From positions 543,859 through 607,858 of the forward strand of contig JAUJNI010000001.1 in the NCBI GenBank assembly GCA_030446465.1: a stretch of 64,000 nucleotides of DNA, read 5' to 3'. Source of the DNA: Actinomycetota bacterium (lineage in GTDB: Bacteria > Actinomycetota > CADDZG01 > WHSQ01). Numbering within the stretch: position 1 is the first letter of the stretch; every line of letters starts with the position of its first letter. The notes under the pieces were generated by a model. It did not search any database, was not told where the DNA came from, and was given only the letters and a program-made list of their open reading frames with translations. Made by a program: the position numbers and the translations under genes. Positions 3,477 to 39,118 of the stretch are shown here, piece by piece.

Positions 3477-4278
3477 AACTCAGCGCCAGTTGCGCCCCGG
3501 GCTGTGGCAAACGGTGAACGAGCGGTATCCCGGTGCCATGATCTCGAAGAGCGACGTGGTTCCGCTCGCACGGCTCGACAAGCCTCTCGAAGCGGCGCGC
3601 CTCACATTCATCAGCTCGGCGGGCGTGCAGCCGAAAGGGACGCTGCCGTTCGATGTGGTTCACCCCGTGGGCGACTACACGTTCCGCCGCGTCCCGTCAG
3701 ATGCCTCACCGTCCGACCTCGAGATCCATCAGCTGAAGTACCCGACCGACGGAGCGAGCCGCGACCTGAACGTGATTTTCCCGATAGAACGGCTCCAGGC
3801 GCTCGCTGCGGAGAGGGTCATCGGTAGCCTCACCCGGAACTTTTTCTCGTTCATCGGCTACAACATGGATCCGGAGCGGCTGGAGGCGACCCTCGCGGAG
3901 GACATCGCCGACGCCACAGTCGCAGACCATGCCGACATCGCACTGCTGGCGCCTGCCTGACCTATATGACACCAGTCTGTCGCGCTCGTGCAGCGCGCTG
4001 TAGAGCAACGGGGTATCGCCACCGTGTCCATAAGCGTCGCCCGTGACGTAACGGAGCACTGCAAGCCGCCCCGCGCCGTCTTCGTGCCGTTCCGGATGGG
4101 ACACCATTTCGGCGTTCCATTCCACGCCGACCTACAGCGGCGCATCATCGTCGAAGCTCTTGCGCGGATCGAGGACGTCGAGACCAGCGGCGACATCCAA
4201 GACCTTCCGATCACGTGGGCGCAGGCGCGCAGAGAGGGTCGAGTCATCGAGCAGGAGATCGGCCGGACCTCCGCATGA
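3460..4278 (+). CDS. GrdB/PrdB-like selenoprotein with UPIU motif (two in-frame TGA)
   Basis: One frame runs from the ATG at 3460 to the TGA at 4276 if two TGA codons (3958-3960 and 3967-3969) are read as selenocysteine. The product is 272 residues with Sec167 and Sec170 in LLAPA-U-P-I-U-HQSVAL. This belongs to the glycine/sarcosine/betaine or D-proline reductase 'selenoprotein B' superfamily, where Cys homologues carry CPxCHQ at this point. The part before the TGA matches the family (repeat of 'FPIERL..LAAERVIGSLTRNFFSF') and the part after it (GIATVSISVARDVTE, PPRAVFVPFRMGHHFG) is the expected C-terminal half, so the TGA is not a natural end. A hairpin at 3981-3997 fits a bacterial SECIS. 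The paired Sec residues suggest a diselenide/thiol redox centre; substrate unknown. Two nonsense mutations exactly at the two redox Cys would be the alternative. Confidence 0.8.
3981..3997 (+). promoter_or_regulatory. SECIS-like hairpin of the UPIU selenoprotein
   Basis: Perfect 6-bp stem CGCGCT/AGCGCG closing a five-base loop CGTGC. The loop begins 17 nt after the second TGA (3967-3969) and 26 nt after the first (3958-3960), within the range used by bacterial SelB, so one hairpin could serve both codons. The loop carries the G-U that SelB reads in known elements. Confidence 0.7.
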
Positions 4279-4297
4279 GTGAACGGAGCTATCGATA

Positions 4298-5236
4298 ATG
4301 AGGATCGCAGCGGCGCAAGCTCACTCGGTATGGCTAGACCCCGCCGCGACTTCGAAGAAGGTCTTGTCGTTCTTGCAGGACGCGGCCGCCGAAGGGGTAG
4401 AGCTCCTGGCTTTCCCTGAGACCTTCTTGTCCGGATACCCGTTCTGGGTCGAGAAGACCGACGGGGCTCGTTTCAACGATGACCGCCAGAAGGCCGCCTA
4501 CGCCTATTACCTTGACGCAGCGGTCGAGATGGACGGGCCGGAGATCGGTGACATCACCGAAGCTGTAGCCGATCTCGGTGTCTTCACCTATCTCGGGATC
4601 ACCGAGCGAGGTAGCGGAGCAGCGCACGGGACCGTGTTCTGCACCCTCGTCGCCATAGATCCCAGGCACGGGATCCTTTCACGCCACCGAAAGCTGGTTC
4701 CGACCTACGAAGAAAGGCTGGTGTGGGGGCATGGTGATGGCTACGGACTCCGGGTCCACGACCTCCCAGGCGGAAAGGTCGGCGGGCTGAACTGCTGGGA
4801 GAACTGGATGCCACAGGCTCGTCACGCGCTCTACGCGGGCGGCGAGGACGTACACGTGAGCGTGTGGCCGGGCGCTACACGACTAACCCGTGACATCGCC
4901 AGATTCATCGCGCTGGAGGGCCGTGTTTATTCGCTTGCTGCGTGCGGCGTGCTGGCGCTCGAGGACGTCCCTACCGACTTCCCCCTTCGGGACCTACTGG
5001 AGGACCAAGACAACAACCTCTACTACAACGGCGGTTCGGCCATCGCGGCTCCGGACGGGACCTGGGTTGTGGAGCCGGTCGAGAACGAAGAACGGCTGAT
5101 CGTCGCCGATATCGATCTGGCTCTGGTTCGACGGGAGCGACAGAGCTTCGACCCCACCGGCCACTACAGTCGGCCGGACGTATTCGACGTTCGCGTCGAC
5201 CGTCGCCGCAGAGACGCGGCTGTCTTCACCGACTGA
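4298..5236 (+). CDS. Nitrilase / carbon-nitrogen hydrolase
   Basis: This 312-residue protein is a nitrilase-superfamily enzyme that would hydrolyse a C-N bond, most likely turning a nitrile into an acid plus ammonia. The catalytic triad is visible: Glu41 in AFPETFLSGYP, Lys132 in HRKLVPT and Cys166 in GGLNCWENWMP. The sequence YP after FLSG and the CWEN motif favour the true nitrilase/cyanide-hydratase branch over amidase branches, and the length is usual for it. It starts 20 bp after the selenoprotein gene on the same strand and is probably in the same operon. That pairing suggests a common small nitrogen-containing substrate or a detoxification role, but the sequence does not identify the substrate. 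Confidence 0.88.
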   Translation: MRIAAAQAHSVWLDPAATSKKVLSFLQDAAAEGVELLAFPETFLSGYPFWVEKTDGARFNDDRQKAAYAYYLDAAVEMDGPEIGDITEAVADLGVFTYLGITERGSGAAHGTVFCTLVAIDPRHGILSRHRKLVPTYEERLVWGHGDGYGLRVHDLPGGKVGGLNCWENWMPQARHALYAGGEDVHVSVWPGATRLTRDIARFIALEGRVYSLAACGVLALEDVPTDFPLRDLLEDQDNNLYYNGGSAIAAPDGTWVVEPVENEERLIVADIDLALVRRERQSFDPTGHYSRPDVFDVRVDRRRRDAAVFTD

Positions 5237-36626: not shown

Positions 36627-36779
36627 CGGGAATAGGAATAAGGCAGCGCTGCCTGCTTTCGCGTTGCGTCGTTCACTCAATCAACGCTCGGTGCGAGTCC
36701 CGATCCAATTCCGCGGTGACGGTGGTTGCGGCCATGCGAATCCTGTTGCCAGCTGGCGTACCACTTGAGCCAGGACGAT

Positions 36780-37585
36780 GTGAAGATCGCCGGCACCCGC
36801 CCGGGGTTCGATGATGACTCCAGAGGGTTCGCCGCGATCGAGCGTGATCACGTCCGCACGTTCGTGCCCGACTTCGAATGGCTCCGCTTCCCAGATCCCT
36901 CGCAGCGCAACCCGCTGACTGTGCCACTTGGCGAAGCACGGATCGCGCTGATCGGCACTGCCGGCGCACATCTTCCCGGTGAGCCCGGCATGTCTCCGCG
37001 TGGCGAGGTCAGGTTCATCCCTTCGACCAGCACCAAGATCGATTTCACGCACCCGGGCTTCGACACGGCGCGGGCGGCGCTCGATCCCGAGGTCGTTTTC
37101 CCGCTAGAGACCGTGCGCAGGCTGGTCGAGGCGGGTTTCGTGGGCGAACTAGCGCCAACAGCCATTTCAACCATGGGCTTCATCCCACGCGGAGCCCGCG
37201 TCCTCGGGCACCTCGTGCCCGAGGTCGTCAGGCGGGTGCGAGACGAGGAGGTTCATCTCGCGCTGCTGGTTCCCGCGTGACCGGTTTGTCAGCAGTCAGT
37301 CGGGCTGCTACAGCGCGGGATCTATGAAGCCGGCATCGGGACGGTGTCCGTAACTCAGGTTCCTGGATCACTGAGTTCGTGAAGCCTTCGTTGGCGTGCT
37401 TCGTCGCACACCCGTTCGGGCTGACGCTTGGCGCTTTGAACGATTCTGACACGCACACCGCGGTGGCGCGCGCCGTCCTCAATGAAGCAGAACACGATCA
37501 CCCCCCGGGAAAGATCGTCCCCCTGTCGCGTTTCCAGTGGCCGGACGATCTTCGTCGCCGTCAACTGCGCAAGGATGCGCATTAG
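36780..37585 (+). CDS. GrdB/PrdB-like selenoprotein with UPVC motif, one frameshift
   Basis: Second member of the selenoprotein-B-like family. From the GTG at 36780 the frame reaches a TGA at 37278-37280, predicted Sec167, in LALLVPA-U-PVCQQSVGLL; the same residue number as the first Sec of the protein at 3460, which supports this start. Reading continues GIYEAGIGTVSVTQV, then one base shift near 37352 leads to ITEFVKPSLACFVAHPFGLT and on to the stop at 37585. The second redox position is Cys170, so the motif is UxxC. A hairpin at 37291-37309 fits a SECIS. The shift may be a sequencing error or make this copy inactive. Confidence 0.65.
37291..37309 (+). promoter_or_regulatory. SECIS-like hairpin of the UPVC selenoprotein
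   Basis: Seven-bp stem AGCAGTC/GGCTGCT, with one T-G wobble, closing a five-base loop AGTCG. The loop begins 17 nt after the TGA at 37278-37280, the same spacing as in the UPIU gene. Loop positions two and three are G-T as in the other three hairpins. Confidence 0.6.
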
Positions 37586-37750
37586 CGGTGGCTACCGCTG
37601 GTCTGGATCAGGCGGAGGAGCGGCAGGCGTTGCAAGGAGAGAAGTATTGCCCGCTGATCCCGCACGATCGTTCTGAACCACACATTTCAAGCGCGTGACG
37701 TCCGGCTACGGGTACGGCTAGGGCAAGTGCGTGGACGAGAGGAGGTCGGT

Positions 37751-38512
37751 ATGGCGGAGCCTGAACGTGAACCGAGGAACAGGAAAGCAGATGTGAAGGT
37801 GGTGATCGATCAACAAGAGGTGCGGCGGCTGCTGGACCAGGAGAACGCGCAACTGGTGGAGGTGCTACCTCACCAGGAATACGAGCAGGAGCACCTTCCA
37901 GGCGCGATCAACATGCCGTTGAAGGAGCTGACGCCGGATGCGGTAGCGACCCTCGATCGGGCTCGGCCCGTCATCGTCTACTGCCACGACTTCCTGTGAG
38001 ACATGAGCCCCCGAGCCGCGTGCCGGCTCGAGAGCCTTGGCTTCATCGCCGTTTATGACTATGCCGCCGGGAAGACCGACTGGACCGGGAGTGGACTTCC
38101 CACCGGTGGAACCCAAGCGGACATGCCCCGGCCGGGTCGCCTAGCGCGCGAGACGCCTACGTGTCGGCTGACCGACACAGTTGCGACCGCTCGGGAGCGC
38201 GCCGGCGACGGCGGAGCCTGCATCGTTACCAGCGACAACGGCATCGTCTTAGGGCGTCTGCGCGGCAAGACGTTGGAGCACGATGGTGCCTTGAGTGTCG
38301 CCGACGTGATGGAGGCCGGACCGACGACCGTCCGATACGACGAATTCCTCCCGGATTTGGTGGATCGGATGCAGAAGGCTGGCGTCGGCTCGATAGTGGT
38401 CACCAAACCCTCCGGTGAGCTCGTCGGCCTGATGCAGCGGAGCGATGCCGAAGAGTTGCTGGCTGAAGTACATCGGGAGCATCACGACCATGACGACCAT
38501 GACGCCGGTTAG
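37751..38512 (+). CDS. Rhodanese-CBS selenoprotein (in-frame TGA)
   Basis: The ATG at 37751 follows GAGGAGGTCGGT. One frame runs to 38512 if the TGA at 37997-37999 is read as Sec83. Residues 15-110 form a rhodanese domain (QLVEVLPHQEYEQEHLPGAI, INMPLKEL, PVIVYCHDFL-U-DMSPRAA, CRLESLGF). Cys homologues have Cys at the U position, five residues after Cys78. Residues 120-235 are a CBS pair (CRLTDTVATARERAGDGGAC, ALSVADVMEAGPTTVRYDEF, VGSIVVTKPSGELVGLMQRS) and the tail is His/Asp-rich (HREHHDHDDHD), a likely metal site. Rhodaneses move sulfur or selenium between thiols. The text after the TGA is clearly coding. A hairpin at 38012-38030 fits a SECIS. Confidence 0.8.
38012..38030 (+). promoter_or_regulatory. 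SECIS-like hairpin of the rhodanese selenoprotein
   Basis: Perfect 7-bp stem CGAGCCG/CGGCTCG with a five-base loop CGTGC, identical to the loop of the UPIU gene hairpin. The loop begins 19 nt after the TGA at 37997-37999. Confidence 0.75.
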
Positions 38513-38518
38513 GGCTTC

Positions 38519-39061
38519 TCAGGCTTCTGCAGCGGAGCGGGCTGCGGCGATGATGGCACCGACCGGCGCTCGATCCTCCGGCCCTTGCTCGCGATGAGAG
38601 AGAATCACCTGCCCGTTGCGACGGACGACGAAATCTCCGCCGAGCTGCCTCCGGTCCTGTCGTCTGCGCAGCTTCGGGAACTCGCCTTGCAGAGCGAAGC
38701 GGGCGTATGGTCGCAACACATCGGGGTGCAAGTAGGTTCGGAGGAGCCCGGCGCGGCCGAGTCCGAGCGTGCGATACCCAGCGCGAGACGCATCTCTCAT
38801 GAAGATGAAAGGGCTCGAGAGTCGGCGCTTCATGTCGTCGAGCGTCTGTAGCTCGTCGAACCCGATCACAAGTACGCCGATGTCTCGAGATTCAAGCTCT
38901 TCGGCGTAGCTGGCCATCTTCACGAGATGGCGTTCACAGAGAAGTCAGCCGACGTATCTCAAGAAGGTGAGGATCGCCAGCTGTTGTCGCATCTGACCGA
39001 TCCGGATTGTGCCGCCGCCGACCTTGTCGAACTGAAGCGCCGTGATGTCGTCGCAAGGCAT
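38519..39061 (-). CDS. Peroxiredoxin-like (AhpC/TSA) selenoprotein with UxxC
   Basis: The frame reads from ATG 39061 (or GTG 39088) through a TGA at 38947-38945, predicted Sec39, to 38519; 180 residues. Around the TGA it reads LAILTFLRYVG-U-LLCERHLVK, where peroxiredoxin-like homologues have FLRxxGCxxCREH, so Sec sits at the peroxidatic Cys with Cys42 as partner. The rest is the thioredoxin-fold body: YAEELESRDIGVLVIGFDEL, PFIFMRDASRAGYRTLGLGR and FVVRRNGQVILSHREQGPED. It would reduce peroxides or act as thiol oxidoreductase. A hairpin fitting a SECIS lies at 38931-38913. It is convergent with the rhodanese selenoprotein, six bases apart. Confidence 0.8.
38913..38931 (-). promoter_or_regulatory. 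SECIS-like hairpin of the peroxiredoxin-like selenoprotein
   Basis: On the minus strand, perfect 7-bp stem GCCATCT/AGATGGC with a five-base loop CGTGA; the loop begins 20 nt after the TGA at 38947-38945. Same loop type (CGTGN) as two of the other three. Confidence 0.75.
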
Positions 39062-39118
39062 GACCAACAGAATGACACCATCTTTCACCGTTTGTACTGT
39101 TGATGCTGACTGGCTTGA

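Follow-up and report, generated by a model that had tools for sequence, protein, structure and literature searches.

The 64,000-nucleotide stretch of Actinomycetota DNA analysed here (the window) contains, at positions 37751-38512 of the forward strand, what computation well supports as one gene for one full-length selenoprotein, hitherto unlisted. When TGA is read as selenocysteine (Sec), the interval translates from ATG to a terminal TAG into 253 residues with one recoded codon, and orthologues occur in relatives. A Shine-Dalgarno-like AGGAGG can be read at 37740-37745 (forward strand), 5 nt upstream of the ATG. The protein joins a rhodanese domain (residues 21-112, positions 37811-38086; Pfam PF00581, E 1e-13, 52 bits against a cut-off of 22.2) to a C-terminal CBS region. 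This fusion had been proposed in an earlier, sequence-only reading of the window, and it is borne out by Pfam, which places Rhodanese and one CBS domain above cut-off, and by a profile match to CBS pairs. The active loop reads VYC(78)HDFL-U(83)-DMSPRAA, where Cys78 (codon 37982-37984) occupies the rhodanese catalytic position and the TGA codon for Sec83 (37997-37999) follows five residues later. Comparison of homologous sequences makes it almost certain that SelB and tRNA-Sec insert selenocysteine at this UGA, via a bacterial SECIS hairpin (bSECIS) just downstream.

The codon census carries much of this conclusion. In 61 related genomes, the homologue search returned 25 full-length genes with exactly one TGA and one gene without it, and a wider search over 396 sampled genomes of the phylum Actinomycetota added to these. 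Of 50 distinct homologous loops in all, codon 83 is TGA in 48, TGC (Cys) in one, TCA (Ser) in one, and TAA or TAG in none, with the TGA form carried by 41 of the 396 genomes. Agreement on TGA in 48 of 50 loops, with no other stop at codon 83 in any, is not a matter of chance. The sequence-only reading had named homologues stopping at this codon, or carrying a non-redox residue there, as evidence against its proposal. No homologue stops with TAA or TAG, and the nearest relatives have cysteine at this position; the one non-redox residue is the serine of a diverged paralogue nested within the Sec clade (L045 in genome G001, 4063-4743 on the reverse strand, CDGGLSDLSARAA), which sits on a long branch and has lost the hairpin. 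The TGC form is that of Nonomuraea gerenzanensis, a full-length fused protein. Across the homologue alignment Cys78, Asp84, Ser86 and Arg88 are essentially invariant and Sec83 nearly so; Cys78 is present in 50/50 loops, in agreement with the earlier description of a normal rhodanese cysteine five residues before the Sec. A scan of genome contigs with the window protein as single query returned two single-domain rhodaneses only, the matches being few because its patterns coded the Sec position as TGC or TGT. Phage records gave no match to the rhodanese-CBS gene.

The hairpin downstream of the TGA is conserved. Published criteria for a bSECIS are a loop of 3-9 nt with a G in its first two positions, a stem of 4-16 bp, a distance of 16-37 nt from the TGA and a minimum free energy (MFE) of at most -7.5 (PMC13188914). 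All 48 TGA genes carry a hairpin within these limits: it lies 13 nt downstream of the TGA, with a loop CGUGN that starts 19 nt after it, a 7-bp stem (outermost pair broken in two genes) and an MFE between -8.3 and -15.5 kcal/mol. In the window the element spans 38012-38030 on the forward strand, with arms CGAGCCG (38012-38018) and CGGCUCG (38024-38030) enclosing the loop CGUGC (38019-38023). Since 7-bp-stem hairpins with a SECIS-like loop occur at 9% of window positions, a lone hairpin proves nothing and it is conservation that counts. Among 47 distinct sequences, a leucine codon in the stem is always CTC (47/47) and one alanine codon always GCG (47/47). An Arg/Gln change is always matched on the opposite arm (GCC..CGG to GCT..CAG), giving a compensated pair that is C-G in 41 sequences and U-A in 6. 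By a structured count 98.7% of cells are paired, against 20-53% in slid versions, and none of 200 synonymous-codon shuffles reaches an alifold consensus energy as low. The mean single-sequence folding energy fails to separate the SECIS from such shuffles, 58 of 200 being as low.

The host genome encodes SelA, SelB, SelD and a tRNA-Sec (83 bits), so that the expected machinery accompanies the Sec codon that the sequence-only reading had placed in the rhodanese loop. SelA occurs in 36 of the 41 TGA-carrying genomes, compared with 199 of the 355 other sampled genomes of the phylum (p 4e-5). The SelA search found no copy in five of the 41: G013, G256 and G344 are assemblies at 73-83% estimated completeness, and G056 (94%) and G337 (96%) are not accounted for by incompleteness. 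That the carrier genomes instead read TGA as one of the ordinary amino acids has a negligible probability. No support for it was found, it is excluded by the many orthologues that terminate in TGA, and the presence of the selenium genes and tRNA-Sec also speaks against it. The host SelD (G000:C4:510091-511011, L133) carries one in-frame TGA and is probably itself a selenoprotein.

Named carriers of the gene are plasmids of Pseudonocardia autotrophica, P. broussonetiae and Rubrobacter marinus, and a replicon of Nonomuraea gerenzanensis. Public annotation splits the gene at the UGA on the Pseudonocardia plasmids, where the RefSeq entries WP_158092367.1 and WP_085916618.1 are two genes, one before and one after the TGA, and misses the rhodanese half on the Rubrobacter marinus plasmid (L065, identical to L131), where only the CBS half is annotated. 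Such models would suit a true stop that leaves either two independent proteins or a pseudogene, but this is very improbable given TGA in 48 genes with TAA and TAG in none, the conserved SECIS, the existence of fused Cys and Ser forms, and purifying selection before as well as after the TGA (9 pairs; dN/dS after the TGA of about 0.12-0.48, indicating selection at the protein level). The Rubrobacter marinus copy changes frame within its N-terminal part, before the Sec codon is reached. Genome G239 of the same-phylum sample has a stretch identical to this plasmid, which identifies the phylum of the sample as Actinomycetota. Read as a selenoprotein gene, the locus adds a well-supported Actinomycetota selenoprotein family and is a case in which Sec within a rhodanese loop can be tested; since named Pseudonocardia strains carry it, the test of the Sec claim can be a direct one.

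The nearest relatives of the family are single-domain rhodaneses of the same phylum, in which the loop is C-x4-C and the second cysteine stands in the Sec column. The earlier reading had proposed a search for homologues with cysteine at this position, and these are such proteins: 11 read YCSNxAC or a close variant, and one reads YCYSAEC. The actinomycetote rhodaneses with YCSNxACQNS differ from the window protein in having no Sec and no matched CBS region. BH2092, of solved structure (PDB 3nhv), is likewise C-x4-C (YCWGPACNG), but at 144 residues it too has neither Sec nor CBS region. A midpoint-rooted tree (57 sequences) puts the full-length Cys and Ser forms on long branches within the Sec clade. 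This placement fits a history in which Sec would have arisen once from cysteine in the ancestor of the fusion clade and been lost twice, as far as a midpoint root alone can tell. The Nonomuraea form fits a Sec-to-Cys loss, because its SECIS stem is retained and the CGUG loop is gone. A single-domain rhodanese-like frame on a plasmid of Gemmatirosa kalamazoonensis (L066, 2001-2321) also has a TGA at the corresponding place in the loop (CWDPG-U-PHSRYAA), followed by a hairpin, and may be another C-x4-U rhodanese selenoprotein, this one from Gemmatimonadota.

Selenoproteins with a rhodanese fold are known. A 2026 catalogue describes five forms, with the motifs UxxS, UxxG, CxU, UxxG and UxxxxU, and searching its text turned up neither the term CBS nor a CxxxxU motif (PMC13188914). 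NCBIfam 20.0 has no model above cut-off for the window protein and models no CBS form, and a literature search on rhodanese, CBS domain and selenocysteine found no paper. The best NCBIfam match is TsoB (NF045694, a rhodanese/DsbD fusion with UxxxxU), at 34.9 bits against a curated cut-off of 805; it resembles the window protein in its Sec-containing rhodanese loop and in the equal spacing of the redox residues, but has two Sec, a DsbD-like fusion and no CBS. Rhodanese-like selenoprotein form 3 (NF041203, CxU; 24.6 bits against a curated cut-off of 115) also combines Cys and Sec in the loop, but its Sec comes two residues after the cysteine and it is a single domain. Form 1 (WP_010941598.1), listed as a plain PF00581 protein, has the motif UxxS, which also reads here as U-D-M-S (PMC13188914). 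The Sec of form 1 may equal Sec83 in position, and by description only is this form set apart. Compared with these forms, and with form 1 by its description, what is new is the CBS fusion and, likely, a subfamily within the known rhodanese selenoproteins.

Taken as a whole, the motif and the homologues suggest that the protein is probably a thiol-selenol redox enzyme or persulfide resolver. Here, Cys78-x4-Sec83 would form a thiol-selenol pair in the rhodanese loop, a proximity that we infer from the loop spacing because an AlphaFold2 model of the window protein, built from its single sequence, had a mean pLDDT of 39 and was discarded as too poor for use. Cys78, at the catalytic position, would attack a substrate's sulfane sulfur or oxidised thiol, or accept it; Sec83 would then attack the Cys78 adduct, forming a selenenylsulfide and freeing the reduced product (HS- in the case of a persulfide), and a cellular thiol reductant would restore the pair. 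Its task would then be to reduce or resolve persulfides, disulfides or thiol adducts, unlike that of a classical transferase. To the sequence-only reading a sulfur/selenium transferase was one possibility; such a protein would carry a persulfide or selenopersulfide on the loop and hand it to an acceptor. The rhodanese fold and the catalytic cysteine position, kept throughout the homologues, agree with transfer, but the window loop (C-HDFL-U-DMSP-R) has the form C-x4-U-x4-R in place of the classical six-residue CRxGx[RT], a resolving Sec beside the acceptor cysteine favours reduction over transfer, and among the loci examined no neighbouring gene for selenium metabolism was noticed. A transferase is accordingly unlikely, and the C-x4-U pair would point to redox or persulfide chemistry in its stead. 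An Acr2-type rhodanese-fold arsenate reductase was also considered and rejected, as the loop is not C-x5-R, the pattern of that family.

The CBS region bears on whether such an activity would be regulated. Its second domain (residues 183-232, 38297-38446, forward strand) matches PF00571 (E 2.9e-6), a match shared by all 25 members of homologue set A1, and a first copy (approximately residues 132-180, 38144-38288, forward strand) is visible at profile level only, where the family profile spans the CBS pairs of solved structures. 'CBS pair', the term used by the sequence-only reading, is by this profile alignment the right label for two copies, of which the first is degenerate. The same reading had suggested that nucleotides could regulate the protein through its CBS domains. 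On this view, an adenosyl-nucleotide bound by the CBS pair would switch the rhodanese activity. Retention of the CBS fusion throughout the clade is in keeping with such gating. In the canonical motif G-h-x-[ST]-x-x-[DN], however, the Ser/Thr contact is present at CBS2 in just 1 of 47 sequences (one Ser), while at CBS1 Arg replaces it in 36 of 48 and the closing Asp is missing too. A CBS pair without the canonical Ser/Thr makes nucleotide gating doubtful, and we regard it as rather improbable. The pair would more likely serve for dimerisation or docking, or respond to redox state through Cys138 and Cys157 of the first copy; these two cysteines co-occur (both in 37 sequences, neither in 7, one in 5), with p 3e-5 serving only as a guide, as the sequences are related. 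The protein ends in a His/Asp-rich tail (HREHHDHDDHDAG, 38471-38509, forward strand), of the HREHHDHDDHD type that had been put forward as a metal tail. The tail is present in the window protein and is not conserved; at least 4 His in the last 20 residues are found in 6/50 homologues only, and a metal site in it, or a tail that defines the family, is not supported.

Gene context points, suggestively, to metal or thiol stress. Genes for ArsR, MerR, an HMA P-type ATPase, MerB or the DF family (NF049942) lie within 4 kb of 15 of the 50 loci, often directly upstream on the same strand, and Pseudonocardia autotrophica has MerR, alkylmercury lyase (MerB), DF protein and rhodanese-CBS genes in that order. 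The DF protein, a recurrent upstream neighbour, is an unrelated small thioredoxin-like protein and not a homologue; its family has a known Sec member (PMC12013277), and a literature search on the DF family and selenoproteins found no paper. These neighbours would suit a role in handling soft metals or organomercurials, in which Cys78 and Sec83 serve as a thiolate/selenolate pair in metal-resistance operons and bind or relay Hg(II), Cd(II), As(III) or the metal that remains once a C-Hg bond has been cleaved. Against this, 35/50 loci, the window copy included, have none of the metal genes, though many flanks are short, and another subclade (L042, L057, L058, L101) adjoins genes for an ECF sigma factor, a zinc-finger anti-sigma factor and DUF3179 instead, DUF3179 being itself listed with Sec members (PMC13188914). 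The enrichment is only suggestive: the control that gave zero hits was limited to 112 kb of the host genome, and recurrence at these very loci was the reason for choosing the query families. Metal handling by the pair is a possible but rather unlikely alternative. The neighbours hint at a possible role for selenium in metal or persulfide stress, and a broader reading can be offered tentatively, in which the Actinomycetota C-x4-U rhodanese with its CBS region and correlated Cys138/Cys157 would be a selenium-based enzyme or sensor for persulfides, soft metals or organomercurials, carried in part on mobile metal-resistance plasmids.

In the window, the neighbours of the rhodanese-CBS gene are two other TGA-containing genes, so that three such genes lie side by side. 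Upstream, a PrdB/GrdB-like gene (36726-37585, forward strand; TIGR04483, 3e-20) has an in-frame TGA in LLVPA-U-PVCQQS; its frame shifts near 37360-37380, and therefore the copy is broken or the sequence contains an error. Downstream and tail to tail with the rhodanese gene, a peroxiredoxin-like gene of the AhpC-TSA_2 family (38519-39103, reverse strand; PF13911) includes a UxxC motif (VG-U-LLC) whose U is an in-frame TGA.
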